This document shows, piece after piece, positions 3,349 through 14,249 of a DNA stretch of 15,459 bases. The notes beneath the pieces are model-generated. The model made no database searches, was not told the origin of the DNA, and was given only the letters and a program-made list of their open reading frames with translations. Source of the DNA: Candidatus Berkelbacteria bacterium. Lineage in GTDB: Bacteria; Patescibacteriota; UBA1384; JAHJRZ01. The position numbers and the translations under genes are program-made. The stretch spans positions 1 through 15,459 of the forward strand of contig JAPLVI010000159.1 of the NCBI GenBank assembly GCA_026397195.1, given 5' to 3'. Position 1 is the stretch's first letter, and every line of letters begins with the position of its first letter.

Positions 3349-3377
3349 AGTAGTTTAGTTTTTTGATTGGATTTCGC

Positions 3378-3504
3378 CTGAATACCCAGCTCTTTCCGCG
3401 AAAAGGGCTGGGATGAAGGTAAGTAAATGCAGCGGAGCGAAAACTTAGAAACGATCTCCGCCCTGATACCTCGCAGCTTGCTGCGAGGGCGGGTTCATTA
3501 ATTT
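3378..3504 (+). repeat. structured intergenic repeat A (subfamily 1)
   Basis: This 127-nt element shares its order of blocks with repeat B at 14070-14249: CTGAATACC, hairpin 1 (CCCAGC 3385-3390 with GCTGGG 3407-3412), GGGATGAAG, ATGCAGCGG, a variable middle, CCGCCCTGATA, hairpin 3 (CCTCGCAGC 3469-3477 with GCTGCGAGG 3480-3488), GGGTTCATTAATT. The hairpin sequences differ between A and B but the pairing is kept. It fills the gap between rpsT (minus) and the DHH gene (plus). The sense strand is unknown; plus is used because conserved blocks were read that way. Confidence 0.75.
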
Positions 3505-3624: not shown

Positions 3625-4854
3625 ATGGATTTAACACCTAAACAACAAGCGACTCAAGCTATCAAAGAGGCCCAAAAGATACTTTTAATTGCTCATGAGG
3701 AACTTGATGGTGATGCCATTGGCTCACTTTTGGCCTTAAATTATATCCTTTCAAAGATTGGTAAGGAAGTATTAACCATTTCTTCGGGTTCGATTCCAGC
3801 TGTTTATAGTTTTTTGTCTGATATTGACTCTATCAAAAAAGATATGGATGGCATAAAAGATTTTATGATTTTTCTTTCGGAAGAACATGCCAAAGTGGCA
3901 AGACTTTCTTATAAACTTGAAGATAACCGACTTAAAATCGTTATTTCTCCTAAAGCTGGCAATTTCTCTCCTAATGATGTTAATTTCGCTTATGGTGATT
4001 TTCATTATGATTTAATAATCATCCTTGATGCTGATGCACTAGAGAGGCTCGGTACTATTTATCGCGAAAATACAGAAATGTTTTATAAGACCGATACCTT
4101 GAATATTGATCATCATGTAAGTAATACCTATTTTGGAAAAATTAATTGGGTTGACGAGTCTGCTTCATCAGTTTGTGAAATTTTGGTTTCATTAATTGAG
4201 GCACTCGAAAGTGAACAGGGGAAACTAATGAATGGTAACGCAGCGACAGCCTTGCTTTTGGGTATCATGACTGATACTAACCTCTTCCAGAATCCGGCTA
4301 CGACATCAAAATCATTAACCGTTGCAGCACAATTGATAGCTTTAGGCGGTGATCGTGATTTAATAGCAAAAAGGGTTTTTCAGACCCATTCCTATTCAAC
4401 CCTTAAAATCTGGGGAAAAATACTTTCTAAACTTGACTCATATCCTGCGCTTGGGCTCGTTTGGTCAGAGGTAACCAAGAGCGATCTAGACATTACCGGC
4501 GCAGACGAAGGGGCACTATCGCAAGCAGTCAATAATCTCCTTTATACCACTGAGGGTGCCAAAATTGTGGCTTTATTTTCAGAATCAAATGGCATGATAA
4601 AAGTCAGTTTGCGTTCGACTGGAGGTTTTGATGTAGCGGCAATTGCTCGTGATTTTGGTGGTGGTGGTCACGAAAAGGCGGCTGGTTTTAAAATGGATGG
4701 CCTCGAGCTGGAAGAAGCCAAAAGAATTGTTTTAAAAAAACTTCGAGGTATAATTTTAGGTGAACAGACCTCTCTTGAGACTAAGGAGGAAAATAGAACT
4801 CAAATTGAAGAAAGAAAGAATGAATCGATTCCAGCCAAGATTCCTGAATCATGA
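3625..4854 (+). CDS. DHH/DHHA1 phosphoesterase, NrnA-like (oligoribonuclease / pAp phosphatase family)
   Basis: A metal-dependent phosphoesterase of the DHH superfamily. Bacterial NrnA members degrade short oligoribonucleotides and 3'-phosphoadenosine 5'-phosphate; the exact substrate here is inferred. Visible motifs are H24 and D28/D30 in HEELDGDAIGS (the family usually has Pro where this has Leu27), D135/D137 in ILDADALERLG, the signature DHH at 162-164 (NIDHHVSN), D217 in GIMTDTN, and the DHHA1 domain with GGFDVAAIARDFGGGGHEKAAGF at 333-355. Between motifs I and II there is an insert of about 50 residues (about 65-125). A polar tail (about 378-409) follows the DHHA1 domain. No Shine-Dalgarno site is seen. 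The final stop TGA overlaps the first bases of structured repeat X (ATGAAC at 4851). Confidence 0.9.
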   Translation: MDLTPKQQATQAIKEAQKILLIAHEELDGDAIGSLLALNYILSKIGKEVLTISSGSIPAVYSFLSDIDSIKKDMDGIKDFMIFLSEEHAKVARLSYKLEDNRLKIVISPKAGNFSPNDVNFAYGDFHYDLIIILDADALERLGTIYRENTEMFYKTDTLNIDHHVSNTYFGKINWVDESASSVCEILVSLIEALESEQGKLMNGNAATALLLGIMTDTNLFQNPATTSKSLTVAAQLIALGGDRDLIAKRVFQTHSYSTLKIWGKILSKLDSYPALGLVWSEVTKSDLDITGADEGALSQAVNNLLYTTEGAKIVALFSESNGMIKVSLRSTGGFDVAAIARDFGGGGHEKAAGFKMDGLELEEAKRIVLKKLRGIILGEQTSLETKEENRTQIEERKNESIPAKIPES

Positions 4855-4985
4855 ACTACCACCCCGACGTAACGTCGGGGTGGTATCCTCGGTCTGACGC
4901 CTCGGCCAGTTCGACATCTCCTCTGCTCACCTCGAACGCTTGGGGCTGGCTTGTATCCCTGCCATAGGTGGGGTGTTAAGCCAGA
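4851..4985 (-). repeat. structured intergenic repeat X (subfamily 2)
   Basis: This 135-nt element is homologous in inverted orientation to repeat Y (7308-7441). A 31-nt core (4884-4914) matches the Y core (7383-7413) at 30 of 31 positions. The flanking stems keep pairing with different sequence. One end stem is CTGGCTT/AAGCCAG (CTGGCCT/AGGCCAG in Y). The other is a 14-bp perfect hairpin, TACCACCCCGACGT (4857-4870) with ACGTCGGGGTGGTA (4872-4885). It fills the gap between the DHH gene and lepB and overlaps the DHH stop codon. No T-run follows the big hairpin. Confidence 0.8.
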
Positions 4986-5004
4986 GATGATAAACTCTCT
5001 CTTG

Positions 5005-5013
5005 TGATATAAT
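5005..5013 (+). promoter_or_regulatory. extended -10 promoter of lepB, probably giving a leaderless mRNA
   Basis: TGATATAAT is a perfect extended -10 (TGnTATAAT) with TATAAT at 5008-5013. There is no clear -35 at the right distance, as often with extended -10 promoters. The expected start near 5020 coincides with the lepB ATG at 5020. Confidence 0.5.
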
Positions 5014-5019
5014 TAAGCC

Positions 5020-5661
5020 ATGAGGGAAGAATTTTTATTGGCGAGTGAAGCGAAAGGAGCGAAAAGTTCTTTTCGCTCCCGAGCGAGCGAGCCGACAAAG
5101 GATTTTGATCCTTTATTTTCTAAACCAACACGAAGTTTTTTTATCTTTTTTGATTATATCCGCACGGCATTAATTATTATTGTTTTATTACTCCTGTTAT
5201 ATTATTTGGTTATCCAAGTATTTGTGGTTAAAGGAATAAGTATGGATCCGAATTTTGCTGATTCTGAATTTATTCTTGTCAATCGAATTAGTTATTACTT
5301 TGTTTCACCTGCTCGTGGTGATAGTATTGTCTTTATTTTCCCTGGTACAAGGAGCGATAAATACATCAAAAGGATTATTGGTTTACCTGGTGAGAGGATC
5401 CAAATAACAAACAATCAAATTAAGATTAACGGTCAAAAATTAGTAGAAGACTATATTCCAAAAGATTTTAAAACTTATGGTGATATTGATTATCGAATCA
5501 AAGACAATGAGTTCTTTGTTTTAGGAGACAACCGGGAATTATCTAATGATTCACGTATCTGGGGACCGCTCACACGAGGACAAATTATTGGACGGGCACA
5601 AATGATACTTACTCCTCTCGCCAAAAAGCAGTGGCTTGAAAAACAGGGATATAATATATAA
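5020..5661 (+). CDS. lepB: signal peptidase I
   Basis: A type I signal peptidase that removes signal peptides from exported proteins at the outer face of the membrane. One N-terminal membrane anchor lies at about 45-68 (TALIIIVLLLLLYYLVIQVFVV). The catalytic Ser74 is in KGISMDP, the general-base Lys117 is in KYIKRIIGLPGE, and box E is GDNRELSNDSRIWG at 169-182. The length (213 aa) is normal. The cytoplasmic N-terminal tail of about 40 residues is partly encoded by an 11-bp palindrome (5056-5079). The ATG at 5020 lies 6 bp after a TATAAT, so initiation may be leaderless. A TTG at 5038, preceded by GAGGGA, is an alternative start. It ends 4 bp from the convergent DUF2207 gene. The DUF2207 protein, with its signal peptide, is a plausible substrate. 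Confidence 0.94.
   Translation: MREEFLLASEAKGAKSSFRSRASEPTKDFDPLFSKPTRSFFIFFDYIRTALIIIVLLLLLYYLVIQVFVVKGISMDPNFADSEFILVNRISYYFVSPARGDSIVFIFPGTRSDKYIKRIIGLPGERIQITNNQIKINGQKLVEDYIPKDFKTYGDIDYRIKDNEFFVLGDNRELSNDSRIWGPLTRGQIIGRAQMILTPLAKKQWLEKQGYNI
5056..5079. repeat. 11-bp palindrome inside the lepB N-terminal tail
   Basis: GGAGCGAAAAG (5056-5066) and CTTTTCGCTCC (5069-5079) pair perfectly around TT. It encodes part of the cytoplasmic tail ahead of the membrane anchor, a region signal peptidases do not need. A GC-rich stretch with GAGCGAGCGAG follows directly. Confidence 0.7.
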
Positions 5662-5665
5662 CTCT

Positions 5666-7291
5666 TTAATATCCTTTTAATTCTTCAATTTCTTCTGCCA
5701 TTCCGCGACAGGCATTGACTGTTCTTACCATCCATTCGCAGGTCCCGACATATGGCATTGCCGACACATAAAAACTAGGAGTCTCTGCTGGCAGATTTTT
5801 GAAATGACCAATCCATTCTTCGGTCGCGCCTAATGCCTCGGCCTGTGGCAGATATTTTAAGCTTAAATTTTTCCCGTCTTCTATTGGATAATGACCAAGC
5901 AAATATTTTTTAAATGAAAGCCAACGTTCAAGCTCTGATTTACCGGCTGGGGTTCTCGGGGGAATAATTTTAGCAAGATATAGAATCAAGATTGAAGCAA
6001 CGGTAATCCCGAAAGGAGGTAAAAGCATCAAAGGATTTGCTGGGAAAAAAACAATAGCAAGGACATACAAGACTATGCTTAAAAGAAAGAGAGCAATGCC
6101 AATCAAATGATGCATTATTTTCATTCGATAAGGGTCTCTCTCAAAAAAACCTTTTAAAGAGCCGATTTGATAAATTTCGTGATAGACTTTTTCAAAAATT
6201 GGATCAACTAATTCCTTTTCCTCTATCTTTTCAAGCTCACCGAGACTTGTTTTTATCTTTTGTCTTTTAAAAAGCTCACCCAATATTTTTTCTTCATAGG
6301 GAAGAAGTTGAATATTTGTGTCTTTTCGTCCAAAAGTGATCATATCGCCTTTATCAACAATAATAACAACTCCTTTTTTTATAAGGTCGAGGATTGTTGC
6401 TGAAACTCCGATTTGGGTAATATCACCCTGATAAAGAAGATCTAGAAGAGCTGGCGGGATTTCATCTGGTAATTCGCTCGAAATTGGGAGACCGCGATTG
6501 ATTCTAACACTATTTTTATATCTCAAATGAAGATAAAGAAGCATAATTAAAGTTATAAGCGGCAGGGGTAACGATATTATTATTAGGGAGACAAGGCTTA
6601 AATTATCAAAGAAAAATTTTATTCTATCCCCCAATGGAAAAACAATTGAATTACTTAAAAATGTATCTTCAACTGTAAAACTCGAATAAGAACTTGTCTG
6701 AAAAGCATTATAAACAAGAACATTTTCTCCCTCGGTCGTTTGACTTGAATCTTCGATTCCATGGACGGCGTAAAATCTTTGTCCCTCGGCTGCCTCAGTG
6801 GCATTATTAGGTAATTTCACATTAACTTGCAAATTATTAATAAAAATACCTGGGCGGTCAAAAATTATATTTTTAAATAATATTTTTTTATTAACAATCA
6901 TAAGATTATTAAAAGATTTGTAGCTTATCTTTAAATTAGTATTTGAATAATAGTTCAAAGGGAAAGTAAGCCTAGCCATATCACCACCTTGGATATCGAT
7001 TTGAGATGAATCAATTTTTGTTCCATTTTCTTCAATTTCAAGCTCTCGAACATTTTTGGAGTCTACATTCCAAACAAAAGAAGATGAGTATAGACTCAAA
7101 CCAGCAAACTCTTCAACAACCACAAGACTAGAGTCATTTTTAACTTCAATATTTACCTTAAGATCATTGAGATTCCCAATTTCAGCAATTTGATCTCCTT
7201 GTGCTTTCGCGGAGGGGCTTTCAGTAAAAACAAATAACAACAAAAAAATTGCCGTGAAAATTAATCTAAAAAAAATTATTGCCCCTCGCAT
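5666..7291 (-). CDS. DUF2207 (YciQ-type) predicted membrane protein with signal peptide
   Basis: The family has no established function. The 541-aa protein has a clear signal peptide (1-30, hydrophobic core IIFFRLIFTAIFLLLFVF, likely cut after Ala-Lys-Ala before QGDQ). An extracytoplasmic beta-rich domain covers about 35-215, with NNLMIVNKKILFKNIIF and the tail block SSFTVEDTF. A membrane segment at 231-256 is followed by a cytoplasmic region (257-390) with a winged-helix-like stretch IPPALLDLLYQGDITQIGVSATILDLIKKGVV. A membrane hairpin follows (393-416 and 419-441), then a C-terminal cytoplasmic domain with the family motif RTPAGKSELERWLSFKKYL (446-464). It is downstream of ileS on the same strand, with repeat Y between them, so co-transcription is possible. 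Confidence 0.85.
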   Translation of the reverse strand: MRGAIIFFRLIFTAIFLLLFVFTESPSAKAQGDQIAEIGNLNDLKVNIEVKNDSSLVVVEEFAGLSLYSSSFVWNVDSKNVRELEIEENGTKIDSSQIDIQGGDMARLTFPLNYYSNTNLKISYKSFNNLMIVNKKILFKNIIFDRPGIFINNLQVNVKLPNNATEAAEGQRFYAVHGIEDSSQTTEGENVLVYNAFQTSSYSSFTVEDTFLSNSIVFPLGDRIKFFFDNLSLVSLIIISLPLPLITLIMLLYLHLRYKNSVRINRGLPISSELPDEIPPALLDLLYQGDITQIGVSATILDLIKKGVVIIVDKGDMITFGRKDTNIQLLPYEEKILGELFKRQKIKTSLGELEKIEEKELVDPIFEKVYHEIYQIGSLKGFFERDPYRMKIMHHLIGIALFLLSIVLYVLAIVFFPANPLMLLPPFGITVASILILYLAKIIPPRTPAGKSELERWLSFKKYLLGHYPIEDGKNLSLKYLPQAEALGATEEWIGHFKNLPAETPSFYVSAMPYVGTCEWMVRTVNACRGMAEEIEELKGY

Positions 7292-7307
7292 ATTTGAGTC
7301 TATTATT

Positions 7308-7441
7308 TCTGGCCTAATACTGTGAGCTTTAGCTCACAAATACAGGCCAGCCCGAAACGAGCCGCGGCGAGTGGAGGAAATATCGAACTGGCCGAGGCGT
7401 CAGGCCGAGGATATAGCGGCCTTAAGACCGCTATAGTTCAT
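7308..7441 (+). repeat. structured intergenic repeat Y (subfamily 2)
   Basis: A 134-nt element homologous to the reverse complement of X. In order: TCTGGCCT, TAATAC, hairpin TGTGAGCT-TT-AGCTCACA, ATAC, AGGCCAGCCC (closing the CTGGCCT/AGGCCAG stem), a purine-rich stretch, the conserved core at 7383-7413, then a hairpin with arms TATAGCGG and CCGCTATA, then TAGTTCATT. Relative to X the closing stem shows a T-A to C-G double change and both hairpins have changed sequence while still pairing. It lies between ileS and the DUF2207 gene, both on the minus strand. Confidence 0.8.
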
Positions 7442-7465: not shown

Positions 7466-10318
7466 TTAAATCTTATCGACTTGGAAATTTATTGTTTGTT
7501 TGCCGGCAGGTATCGAATAAGCCAAGTTATTTTTTTTCACGAAGATAATACTTTCCGAGAGGGTATTTTCAAGTATTTGCTCGCTATACTTCTTAATTAT
7601 TTTTTTGGTTTTGTTGTCAACTGAAAAAGATATGATTGTTTTATTTTTAATAGTTAGGCCTTCTTTTTTTCTGGCGGCATTAATTTCTCTAATCAGATCC
7701 CGAATAAGTCCTTTTTCTTCAAGCCTCGGTGTAATTTTTGTATCCAAAACGATTTCATCTTTAATCTTAGCCACAGTTATTTTTTCTACATTAACTTCCC
7801 CTTTGATTAAATCAAGAAATTCATTTCCGAGGTTAGTTTTAATTTTTAAACTTGCAAGGGGTTGCCTTACTTTGATGCCGTTTTCTGCTCGTTTTGCTAA
7901 GGCCAAAGCCACCATTTCTCTTGTTTTTTTCATCGACTCAATCAATTTTTCATCAAGATAATCTTCTTGCATTTCGGGCCAGTCATCTAGATGAACTGAT
8001 TCTTTGGGTCCTTTAAGCTCCTGATAAATATTCTCGGCAATAAAAGGGGTAATCGGCGCCATAATTTTAGCAAAAGTAAGTAAGACGTGGTAAAAGACTT
8101 GTATGCCGGCTTCATCGTTCTCTTTAAAGCGGTCTCTGGACCTGCGCAGGTACCAGGTAGAAAGATCATTGATAAAGCTAGAGATTCCACGCGAGGTGCG
8201 GATAACATCATATTTATCCAGATATTCTGTGGTGTTTTCGATAAGTTCAGACAAACGTGCCATAATCCAAGCATCAAGAATATGAAGGTTATCTTTTTCT
8301 GGCAGAAATTTATTTTTCTCTTGTAGGGGGTAGAGCTTATAAAAAGAAAGAACATTAGTAATAATCATAATTACTTTCTTTTTTATTTCATCCAAATCAT
8401 GTTCAGAAAAAAATAGATTTTCTGATTTCATCACCACCGAAGACATCAAATAATAACGCAGAGCATCAACCCCGTGTTTTTCAATCATCAGCCAAGGATC
8501 AGGATAATTCTTTTTTGATTTAGAAATTTTTTCACCCTTTTCGTTAAGAATGGTGCCGGTGGTGACGACATTTTCAAAGGGTGCTTTATTAAAAAGAATA
8601 GTTGAAACAACATGCATCGTATAAAACCAAGCCCTGGTTTGGGAGATATATTCGGCAACAAATTGAGCTGGGAAACGATTATTAAATTGTTCCTCATTCT
8701 CGAAGGGGTAGTGGATCTCGGCAAAAGGCATGGAGGCCGACTCCACCCAGCAATCAAGAACTTCGGAGATCCTTTTCATCTCACCGTTGCAGACGCTGCA
8801 TTTAAGTTTTATCTTATCCATTTTGTGCTTGTGAAGATCCGCTTTCCTGACGTCGTCGCTGGCGTAGACCTCGTTGAAATTCAAGGCTTTTTCTTTGAGT
8901 TCAGCAAAACTGCCGATAAGAACAATATTGGCACAGTCCAAACTCTCGCACTTCCAGATCGGAATAGGTGTCGCCCAATAACGATTGCGGGAAATATTCC
9001 AGTCGGGCGCTTCTTCAATGCCTTTAGCAAAACGACCGTGTTTTAAATGTTCTGGATACCAATTAATTGATTCGTTAGTCGCGAGGAGAAATTTTTTAAT
9101 TTTTTGGATATTAATAAACCAGGCCGGGATGGCATTATAGTAGAGTTGAGTGTTGCAGCGCCAGCAAAAAGGATAACTGTGGATCAGATTATGTTTGGCA
9201 AAAAGAAGTCCGCGGCGGTCTAAATCTTTAACTATTATTCCATTGGCTTTTTTGAAATAATTACCTTCGATTAATTTTGGCGCAGAAGGAGTGAAATGGC
9301 CACGTTCATCAAGCAGGGAAACAATGGGCAAATCATTTTTTTGTCCTAAATTATAATCATCTTCCCCGTAAGCGGTGGCCAGATGAACCACCCCGGTTCC
9401 TTCTTCGGTTGAGACAAAATCCGCACTCAAGATCTGATAGGCATTTTTGTTGAGCAGAGTTGGACTGATTTGAAAAAGTGGTTTGTATTTAAGGCCAATC
9501 AATTCACGGCCTAAAAATTCTTTAACGACCTCCATTTTTCGCAATAACTTATTTGCTTTTTCAGAGGCTAAGATATAATTTTTTTCTCCCTCGCGCACGA
9601 GCACATATTTTATCTTTTCACCCACCGCGAGGGCCACATTTGCCGGCAAGGTCCAAGGAGTTGTCGTCCAGGCAAGAATGCTGGTCTGCGCGGGGAGTTT
9701 ATCATTTTTTTCTAACTTGAAGGCGACGGTGATCGTCTCTTCCTTGATGTCGTCATAACTATTATCCAGCGCCACTTCAAAATTGGAGATGGGCGTTTCA
9801 CAGCGAGGGCAGTACAAAAGAACTTTTTTGCCTTCATAAAGAAGACCTTTCTGCCAGATTTCCTTTAACCCCCACCAGACAGATTCGATATAAGTCGAAT
9901 CCATTGTTTTGTAAGAATGTTTTAAGTCCACCCAGCGGCCGATGCGTTCGATCATCTCCCCCCACTCTTCGGCATATTTCAAAACAGCGCTATTGCAGGT
10001 ATTGTTAAATTTATCTACGCCGATTTTTTCGATTTCTTTTTTGCCCGAGCTTTTAAGCTTTTTCTCAATGATATTTTCAATCGGCAGACCATGGCAGTCC
10101 CAGCCCCAGCGCCTTGGCACATAATATCCTTTCATTGTCCAATATCTGCCAACGACATCCTTAATCGTCGAAGCGAGGATGTGCCCATAATGAGGAAGCC
10201 CAGTGGCAAAAGGAGGGCCGTCAAAAAAACTATAGAGTCTGGCTTCTTTGCGGGCATCGAGACTCTTTTCAAAAATCTTCTTCTCTTTCCAAAATTTTAG
10301 TATTTCTTTTTCATCCAT
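7466..10318 (-). CDS. ileS: isoleucyl-tRNA synthetase, type 2 (eukaryal-like)
   Basis: Charges tRNA-Ile in the cytoplasm. At 950 aa it is a little short for type 2. The class I signatures are PHYGHI (42-47, HIGH) and KISKS (597-601, KMSKS, in GEKISKSKKNY). The N-terminal FFDGPPFATGLPHYGHILAS form is the eukaryal-type version. The CP1 editing domain contains WTTTPWTLPAN (217-227) and GTGVVHLATAYGEDDY, with the Asp region needed for hydrolysing misactivated valine. Zinc-type Cys pairs are CPRC (170-173), CWRC (385-388) and CSVC (507-510). The anticodon-binding domain follows (about 650-850). Type 2 enzymes are known for lower mupirocin sensitivity. It lies 22 bp downstream of an unidentified gene on the same strand. 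Confidence 0.95.
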   Translation of the reverse strand: MDEKEILKFWKEKKIFEKSLDARKEARLYSFFDGPPFATGLPHYGHILASTIKDVVGRYWTMKGYYVPRRWGWDCHGLPIENIIEKKLKSSGKKEIEKIGVDKFNNTCNSAVLKYAEEWGEMIERIGRWVDLKHSYKTMDSTYIESVWWGLKEIWQKGLLYEGKKVLLYCPRCETPISNFEVALDNSYDDIKEETITVAFKLEKNDKLPAQTSILAWTTTPWTLPANVALAVGEKIKYVLVREGEKNYILASEKANKLLRKMEVVKEFLGRELIGLKYKPLFQISPTLLNKNAYQILSADFVSTEEGTGVVHLATAYGEDDYNLGQKNDLPIVSLLDERGHFTPSAPKLIEGNYFKKANGIIVKDLDRRGLLFAKHNLIHSYPFCWRCNTQLYYNAIPAWFINIQKIKKFLLATNESINWYPEHLKHGRFAKGIEEAPDWNISRNRYWATPIPIWKCESLDCANIVLIGSFAELKEKALNFNEVYASDDVRKADLHKHKMDKIKLKCSVCNGEMKRISEVLDCWVESASMPFAEIHYPFENEEQFNNRFPAQFVAEYISQTRAWFYTMHVVSTILFNKAPFENVVTTGTILNEKGEKISKSKKNYPDPWLMIEKHGVDALRYYLMSSVVMKSENLFFSEHDLDEIKKKVIMIITNVLSFYKLYPLQEKNKFLPEKDNLHILDAWIMARLSELIENTTEYLDKYDVIRTSRGISSFINDLSTWYLRRSRDRFKENDEAGIQVFYHVLLTFAKIMAPITPFIAENIYQELKGPKESVHLDDWPEMQEDYLDEKLIESMKKTREMVALALAKRAENGIKVRQPLASLKIKTNLGNEFLDLIKGEVNVEKITVAKIKDEIVLDTKITPRLEEKGLIRDLIREINAARKKEGLTIKNKTIISFSVDNKTKKIIKKYSEQILENTLSESIIFVKKNNLAYSIPAGKQTINFQVDKI

Positions 10319-13452: not shown

Positions 13453-13461
13453 TTTATTTTT

Positions 13462-13533
13462 GGGCCCATAGCTCAGTGGTAGAGCGTTCGGCTTATATCC
13501 GAATGGTCGCAGGTTCGATCCCTGCTGGGCCCA
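13462..13533 (+). tRNA. tRNA-Ile, anticodon UAU
   Basis: The full cloverleaf is visible: acceptor GGGCCCA/TGGGCCC, D arm GCTC-AGTGGTA-GAGC, anticodon stem TTCGG/CCGAA with loop CTTATAT (anticodon TAT, A at position 37), variable TGGTC, T arm GCAGG-TTCGATC-CCTGC, discriminator A. It is 72 nt long with CCA not encoded. UAU reads AUA (and probably AUU/AUC depending on modification). In most bacteria AUA is read by a CAU tRNA modified to lysidine. Confidence 0.93.
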
Positions 13534-13534
13534 T

Positions 13535-13731
13535 TTAGAAAGTTTGACGAGATTTGAAGTCAAAACCTCATAAAGCAAAAAACTAGAGTTTCGTTGAAAG
13601 GCAGGATTCGAACTGGGAAAGGGGTCGGGAAAACGGGAGTTTTCCCGCGGAGGAAGGAGCGGGAAACCGTGGGTGTCTCGGCACAGCCCCGCTTCATCGG
13701 GGCGAGCAGTGAGATTCCCTGCTGGGCCCAT
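13535..13731 (+). mobile_element. 197-nt unit bounded by a duplicated tRNA-Ile 3' end
   Basis: CCCTGCTGGGCCCAT at 13520-13534 (tRNA T-arm and acceptor) recurs exactly at 13717-13731. Between them is a GC-rich segment with hairpins GGGAAAAC-GGGA-GTTTTCCC and CCCCG-CTTCAT-CGGGG, and an antisense T-arm-like piece GGCAGGATTCGAACTGGG (13600-13617). The direct repeat at a tRNA 3' end looks like an attachment-site pair, but there is no integrase or coding gene inside. Confidence 0.4.
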
Positions 13732-13734
13732 ATC

Positions 13735-13763
13735 TTGCATTTTTTATTAAGATAAGATATCAT
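13735..13763 (+). promoter_or_regulatory. putative sigma-70-type promoter of rpsO
   Basis: TTGCAT (13735-13740), a 17-nt spacer and TATCAT (13758-13763). Transcription would start near 13770, about 18 nt before the rpsO ATG. Confidence 0.5.
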
Positions 13764-13787: not shown

Positions 13788-14051
13788 ATGGCTAAGACCA
13801 AACAAGAGAAATTACAGGACAAGTACAAAGTTCATAAAACTGACACCGGCTCGACCCAAGTGCAGATTGTAGGTCTAACAAAGAGAATTAATGAATTGAC
13901 CAAACACCTTAAGAACCATAAAAAAGATTACGATTCTCGAGTTGGTCTTTTGAAGATAATTGGCAAACGACGCCGACTTTTAAGTTATCTTAAGAAAGAA
14001 GACGAGAAACAATATCTGAAATTGATTAAAGATCTGGATCTAAGAAAATAG
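13788..14051 (+). CDS. rpsO: 30S ribosomal protein S15
   Basis: A primary 16S rRNA-binding protein of the small-subunit platform. The 87-aa sequence has normal length and the full family pattern: [32 protein letters not shown] (the helix 1-2 region with the rRNA-contacting TGS-x-Q), [24 protein letters not shown], and an ending [12 protein letters not shown]. The leader is short and has only a weak purine stretch (GAAG) before the ATG. The order rpsO-pnp is the classical bacterial arrangement. Here the 329-bp gap contains repeat B and a long hairpin. Confidence 0.97.
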
Positions 14052-14069
14052 GTTTTATTGGATATTAGT

Positions 14070-14249
14070 CTGAATACCCCGCCCTTGAGGGGGGATGAAG
14101 ACATATCAATGCAGCGGCCCGTCTCGGCAGACCCCGAGCCGAGGTCCGTCCAAGACCATGGCCGAGACAGGTCTGACGGAAGCTGCAACTTTAGCAACGA
14201 ACCCGCCCTGATACTCCAAAGCTTGCTTTGGAGCCGGGTTCATTAATTA
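14070..14249 (+). repeat. structured intergenic repeat B (subfamily 1)
   Basis: A 180-nt relative of repeat A. It has CTGAATACC, a C-run/G-run hairpin, GGATGAAG, ATGCAGCGG, an added GC-rich stem region (GTCTCGGC pairing with GCCGAGAC, enclosed by GCAGC/GCTGC), then AACTTTAGCAACGA, CCGCCCTGATA, hairpin CTCCAAAGC (14214-14222) with GCTTTGGAG (14225-14233), and GGGTTCATTAATT. Blocks shared with A are in the same order. Hairpin 3 has a different sequence in A and B but the same pairing and the same TT loop. Confidence 0.75.

Follow-up and report, generated by a model that had tools for sequence, protein, structure and literature searches.

What kind of sequence occurs twice, in opposite orientations and beside different genes, within a single contig of a Candidatus Berkelbacteria genome? 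The window considered here is that whole stretch of 15,459 nt (JAPLVI010000159.1), and the two elements in question are X, at 4851..4993 on the plus strand (143 nt), and Y, at 7300..7441 on the minus strand (142 nt). A first-pass annotation had reported them as a structured repeat pair of equal length, either a functional RNA or a hairpin-dependent mobile repeat. That first observation is correct, but understated. Near-equality of length holds, although the limits first drawn (4851-4985 and 7308-7441) were too narrow. The opposite orientations and different neighbours were described correctly, yet both copies point the same way as the genes beside them. We think it reasonably probable that the two are copies of a mobile palindromic element lacking its own transposase, IS200/IS605-like in its working and similar in its behaviour to the Rickettsia palindromic elements (RPEs).

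Copies and structure of family X

The 31-nt core common to both elements is indeed present (30/31 identical), as is the double change from T-A to C-G that distinguishes CTGGCTT/AAGCCAG from CTGGCCT/AGGCCAG. Moreover, both fold better than their dinucleotide shuffles, with z-scores of -4.47 for X and -5.57 for Y and 0/200 shuffles as good. X opens with ATGA, which we read as host target, and closes with ATAA, read as its 3′ terminus. The 5′ strand of helix P1, ATGAACT (4851..4857), is followed by hairpin P1a (4858..4884), variable in sequence, with double changes at 8/8 modelled pairs across copies. The 3′ strand of P1, AGTTCGA (4908..4914), contains the central tetrad TCGA (4911-4914), a putative guide. 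Next come the 5′ strand of the long-range helix P4, CATCT (4915..4919; double changes at 5/5 pairs), helix P6 (CTGGCTT/AAGCCAG) with its inner hairpin P7 (4946..4984) and, lastly, the 3′ strand of P4, AGATG, together with the terminal ATAA (4985..4993), all on the plus strand. On the minus strand, Y starts with ATGAACT at 7441, has its central strand AGTTCGA (7389-7383) and P4 5′ strand TATTT (7382-7378) side by side at 7378..7389, and ends with AAATAATAG at 7300. It lies between a 950-aa open reading frame (ORF; 7466-10318) and a 541-aa ORF (5666-7291), both on the minus strand. Two of these helices had been missed in the first-pass annotation: P1, which closes the 5′ half, and P4 (CATCT/AGATG in X, TATTT/AAATA in Y), which closes the 3′ half.

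The limits of X and Y were fixed by comparing 28 copies. The genome to which the window belongs is an 842-kb Patescibacteria metagenome-assembled genome of 183 contigs, 79.5% complete, in which a plain DNA search with X returned 29 pieces. A covariance model, R1, built from 22 family X copies gave 28 matches at E≤1 in this genome, of which 27 are separate copies and one is a weak antisense hit on part of another copy; X and Y scored 126.5 and 152.3 bits. Several copies lie at or near contig ends (e.g. C84, C38 and C141), and the count of 27 is therefore probably low. The sole other genus member compared, hereafter the congener (G001), holds one copy. Across the class, R1 matched 2/55 genomes under stricter filters, and Y as plain DNA matched 2/61. 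The exact X core was found twice in a collection of 84,980 genomes, which may omit records close to the genome of the window: once in the congener and once in an unrelated context judged to be chance. In viral contigs the X core had four matches, judged by eye to be chance, and the family W pattern (below) had none.

The architecture drawn from 28 X copies consists of P1 (joining 5′ end and centre), P1a, a small P3, P4 (joining centre and 3′ end), P5, and P6 carrying P7; by eye, P5 has a 2x2 TC/TC loop. In the model-fitted alignment 92.0% of 1033 cells are paired and double changes occur in 30/39 pairs. The covariation score is 0.394, against 0.148 in shuffles, and 0/500 shuffles scored as high. 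When partners were slid by one to three columns, only 24-52% of cells paired. The structure was drawn by the analyst from the same sequences that were scored; an unfitted MAFFT alignment of 22 copies gave 89.1% paired and double changes in 24/39 pairs. P1 cells are 99.3% paired over the 28 copies, P3 shows no double change, and P4 occurs as CATCT/AGATG, TATTT/AAATA, TTACT/AGTAA, TTTTC/GAAAA and other variants. Thus the conserved structure first proposed is borne out by strong covariation in further copies, and the 27 copies in one genome rule out chance.

Such structure and covariation would also suit an element that moves as RNA, by way of a structured transcript, possibly self-cleaving or self-circularising, that is reverse-transcribed or reverse-spliced into ATRA sites. 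Overall we hold this to be unlikely. In the modelled helices G-T and A-C cells are about equally frequent (34 and 35, some of the A-C cells being register artefacts), unlike the expectation for an RNA made from one strand. With this balance, nothing here favours one strand, nor RNA over single-stranded DNA. The functional RNA first offered as one of two options thus gains no specific support.

Insertion sites and the congener

Strong conservation begins at AT[G/A]A and ends after TAA, with no strongly conserved base before or beyond. ATRA forms the left edge of 28/28 X copies and of most W copies, and the base after the terminal TAA is A in 18/27 X and 14/19 W copies, a few W limits in this list being misplaced. 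Insertion is directly 3′ of ATGA or ATAA, often at a stop codon, and no target duplication was seen. The left tetranucleotide holds the stop of an upstream codirectional ORF in 9/28 X copies and in 7/24 matches elsewhere (one of them doubtful). At the left edge of X itself, the upstream ORF 3625-4854 terminates with the TGA at 4852-4854.

The congener lacks the element at the orthologue of the X site. There the gene ends in ...AATCTTGA and is followed directly by the sequence that follows X, a joint judged by eye. Likewise, the congener is without the element at the place of copy C94:8044, where its gene ends in GGATAA and that of the window's genome in GGATGA (again by eye). At these two readable places, then, the host supplies the stop codon that the left tetranucleotide contains. 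At C182:4414 and C169:1209 the element is missing in the congener, the exact joint being unreadable; C165:1739 aligns poorly, C30:2614 and C9:12915 were matched with their joints unread, and the counterpart of Y falls at a contig end. The dispersed copies, the crisp ends, the congener sites without element and the insertion 3′ of a fixed tetranucleotide all speak for the second of the two options in the first-pass annotation, the mobile repeat.

With respect to their neighbours, 14/28 X copies are codirectional with both and 6/28 opposed to both, proportions that count towards movement as RNA. Many copies stand directly after a stop codon between codirectional genes, and those that were folded form stable hairpins, as might a cis-acting RNA (terminator, stabiliser or attenuator) that was spread by ordinary duplication and kept for regulation. 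We regard such an origin as very improbable, given the six copies antisense to both neighbours, the congener places without element and the members that lie within coding sequence. Structured, covarying repeats in Patescibacteria genomes are not necessarily regulatory RNAs.

Family W, the shared central strand and members within genes

The window holds two elements of a second family, W, built on the same plan. W1 (3364..3498, minus strand, limits by eye) reads ATGAACCCG, hairpin, TATC, ..., TTCATCC hairpin GGTATTC, ATCCAAT, and its P1 is partly mismatched. W2 (14055..14243, minus strand) carries a long hairpin in the P5 loop and lies between the ORFs at 13788-14051 and from 14381 onward; in the congener the stretches matching its flanks are only 17 bp apart. 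Manual extraction, which left some copies partial, gave 19 family W copies in the window's genome and one in the congener. In an alignment of 13 copies 95.0% of cells are paired and double changes occur in 13/36 pairs, none of them in P4; 0/500 shuffles reach the observed values, except for 6/500 on one measure. The hairpin at 3385-3412 of the window (CCCAGCYCTTTYCGCGRAAAGRGCTGGG type) is W P7, and it recurs near-identically in the P5 loops of X elements at L031, L036, L040 and L042. It is as if hairpins were exchanged whole between the two families.

A covariance model built from family W, R2, was used to score at most nine candidates per genome, and it matched 22/379 Patescibacteria genomes at E≤0.01, 16 of these at E≤1e-5. 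Some matches look like chance (e.g. L233 and L234), and L230 and L246 are without an ATRA edge. In a fitted alignment of 46 matches from other genomes 90.9% of cells are paired and double changes occur in 35/36 pairs, P4 included, with 0/500 shuffles reaching the observed values; this alignment includes a few weak rows as well as three rows that lie antisense to a stronger match and one truncated row. P1 and P4 sequences vary between genomes, yet within most elements they still pair.

How the two ends relate to the centre is clearest in family W. There a single tetrad of the centre, CGGGT-TCGT-TGG, takes part in pairing with both the start, ATGAACCCG, and the end, CCAATAA, and X and elements of other genomes (e.g. 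L225 and L229) share this one-tetrad pairing of both ends. For a test of the shared centre, the centre was picked from the 5′ end alone, and 59 distinct elements of 93 listed qualified. In 44/59 there are at least three consecutive pairs between the element's own 3′ end and the bases directly after the tetrad. When 3′ ends were permuted among elements the mean was 11.4 and the maximum 20 (2000 trials), and other registers from -4 to +4 gave 0-10 pairing elements. The tetrad base opposite T2 is G in 35, T in 14, C in 8 and A in 2 elements (n = 59), the Watson-Crick partner being avoided. TCGT and TTGT are the commonest tetrads, and TCGA is found in half of the X copies. TTGT fits both the ATRA target and the ATAA terminus except for one kept T.G; TCGT fits ATGA except for that T.G and has one further mismatch with ATAA. 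With its retained T.G-type mismatch on the left, P1 is reminiscent of the guide helix in group I introns, and a central strand that aligns both termini would suit movement as RNA as well.

The left-edge base and its central partner change together. In family X, base 3 is coupled in 28/28 copies (24 G-C, 4 A-T), counted from the 28-copy model-fitted alignment. With partners picked without positions 1-3, coupling was found in 15/18 W copies and in 32/37 scored elements of the other groups; 11/94 rows were unscored in this count and position 4 served as tie-break. Within one genome with at least nine R2 matches (G160), two ATAA copies have TTCT and seven ATGA copies have TCCT. Taken together, the central strand appears to carry the pairing code for both ends and the landing site. 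The coupling and the shared centre fit target choice by pairing, without amounting to proof of it.

Some relatives lie inside genes. In G003, whose RelA/SpoT is identical to P0001 of Ca. Berkelbacteria Licking1014_7, a short element is inserted in frame within that gene after HWQYK, and the insert is missing in 7/7 aligned of at least 120 homologues. A PcrA-type helicase has an in-frame short element of 35 residues, missing in 8/8 aligned of at least 120 homologues. Long ORFs also enclose L228 and L246. Of 12 chosen short elements, ten have a length divisible by 3, and nine of these are open in frame xAT|RAA, although the short in-frame copies are related and so are not nine independent events. 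By eye, X and W are closed in that frame; the in-frame finding concerns short members of another genome.

Three further features of the window were noted. A polA-like gene is split within 1-2011, with an ORF at 2-1588 that stops at an in-frame TAA and the polymerase remainder at 1607-2011. An AT-rich stretch at 11029-11079 matches several congener places and is possibly a third repeat family. Lastly, the GC-rich stretch at 13560-13737, which follows a tRNA-Ile gene (13461-13534), has the 3′ end of the tRNA repeated at its close and by eye looks integration-like.

Proposed working, candidate enzymes and known systems

On the preferred reading, a mobile element without its own transposase, the element would enter as a single oriented unit directly 3′ of a host ATGA or ATAA, and the tetranucleotide would remain at the left edge. 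The folded form would be single-stranded, most likely DNA laid open during replication, and would have two domains: the 5′ end and central strand (P1) around P1a, and the 3′ end and adjoining bases (P4) around P5 and P6/P7. The central tetrad would then face ATRA, the target, as well as ATAA, the 3′ terminus. With such a tetrad, one guide could hold a new target along with the two ends of the element, and a trans-acting enzyme, probably a HUH single-strand transposase of the IS200/IS605 type, would do the cutting and joining there. A wider claim, on which our confidence is evenly divided, is that these elements form a gene-less Patescibacteria class. Both ends and the target would be specified by a single central strand at a constant register, swapping a guide base would switch the insertion site from ATGA to ATAA or back, and the short members would spread through genes as translatable inserts that keep the reading frame.

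We sought known families and an enzyme. The absence of a match to a known RNA family, as first reported, holds against Rfam 15 for the regions searched. The elements drew only weak matches below curated cut-offs (window at E≤1; 20 loci at E≤10; 19 loci at E≤1), and matches above cut-offs were to tRNA, 5S and 16S rRNA outside the elements. No intron model matched in the window at E≤1 or in the 20 loci at E≤10. No published description of these elements was found by title or abstract start among the papers listed, in a search that covered few subscription journals.

These searches bear again on movement as RNA. Both genus members have a gene for a reverse transcriptase, which speaks for it; the one in the window's genome (G000:C118, L248) sits beside a small ORF, and together we take them to be, probably, a diversity-generating retroelement. 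That assumed identity tells against this gene as carrier. Moreover, the elements are only ~90-210 nt long, lack a recognisable intron core and match no intron model in Rfam, and the two in-gene copies are open in frame throughout, so that splicing would be unneeded.

Several observations weigh against the preferred reading of an IS200/IS605-like mobile element. The Y1 transposase (PF01797) was not found in the window's genome at E≤10, this genome being 79.5% complete; Y1_Tnp is present in 29/55 class genomes. R2 (used alone here) run on 30 Y1 loci gave one match, a 27-base hairpin piece with E 0.64, and 20 loci of REP-associated tyrosine transposases (RAYTs; REP, repetitive extragenic palindrome) have small REP-like flanks and not X or W ends, for which reason these Y1/RAYT loci were rejected as carriers. 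IS608 guides lie 5′ of each hairpin, whereas the putative guide here lies 3′ of the left hairpin, between the domains. In the fourteen X copies with TCGA the final base is unpaired with A1. Copy L087:6833 has a broken P4, and W copy L137 breaks the base 3 coupling. When partners were picked without positions 1-3, G-C or A-T was found in only 13/28 X rows, because the partner choice latched onto a hairpin; the model-fitted alignment was therefore used for family X. If ATRA were part of the element, the coupling might be no more than the usual compensation within a stem, but two intergenic places and two protein insertions tell against this. Only 2/5 aligned congener places are readable (X and C94:8044), the congener having diverged. 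At the second of these the congener (L161) reads GGATAAACTTGATAA, which resembles both element edges joined, and its sequence past the gene end, ACTTGATAA, is edge-like; a former copy or an excision scar is possible there.

The missing Y1 transposase counts in favour of a non-autonomous relative served by a non-HUH enzyme, e.g. a recombinase of the serine or tyrosine type that takes folded single strands as its substrate. Integron attC sites are known to be recognised via a folded hairpin, which lends this a precedent. Beyond ATRA/ATAA, though, the ends have no core in common and the copies show no array arrangement, and we judge such an enzyme somewhat less likely still than movement as RNA.

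How gene-less palindromic elements multiply and enter important genes without disrupting them is, on our reading of the field, an open problem, the RPEs being a case in point. If true, the wider claim of a gene-less class would amount to a new logic of insertion, self-guided through one shared guide, and would provide a mechanistic handle on spread of the RPE kind. Left-edge and central bases covary across several genomes, and the rule is thus testable by guide-base swap; it might also account for unusual peptide insertions in conserved proteins of Patescibacteria.

Among known systems, the likeness in working is to IS200/IS605. According to PMC5934647, IS608 inserts 3′ of TTAC, which is retained at the left flank and chosen by pairing with a re-programmable guide, and ~70% of insertions are at TTAC|C. 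The tetranucleotide kept on the left, the lack of any duplication seen, the putative guide pairing and a next-base preference are points of agreement with this account (PMC5934647), as are hairpins near both ends, here P1a and P6/P7. The elements described here differ in having no transposase gene, in apparently using one tetrad for ends and target and in being folded over their full length. Given the guide position, the single shared tetrad and the enzyme not found, we say that they work like IS200/IS605 and not that they are members of it.

REPs, as described in PMC8266576, are short and carry a GTAG tag. In this class too, palindromic repeats adjoin Y1 transposases, but W-like ends were not found at the 30 Y1 loci scanned, and the flanks of the 20 RAYT loci are unlike X or W. 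Many of the 20 RAYT loci (L197-L216; in G001, G030, G021 and others) consist of a single gene between near-identical short palindromes. HEARO, or omega RNA (RF02033), is a structured RNA of a mobile element that occurs in many copies. It was rejected as a candidate, with no RF02033 match in the window (E≤1) or in the 20 loci with copies (E≤10), and the elements differ from it in this respect; a phylum-wide RF02033 search gave 0/145 and shows nothing, as no control matched either.

RPEs are not known to have a transposase, and their placement is mixed. The review PMC10969869 describes them as palindromic, about 150 bp long and of several families, many lying in frame inside unrelated protein genes. 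Compared by description only, they differ from the present elements in phylum; here there are also the shared central strand in P1/P4, the ATRA target and the ATAA end, and the long families X and W are closed in the insertion frame (by eye). In behaviour, RPEs are nevertheless the closest of these systems, for in both cases elements are inserted in frame in unrelated genes, here those for RelA/SpoT and a PcrA-type helicase.

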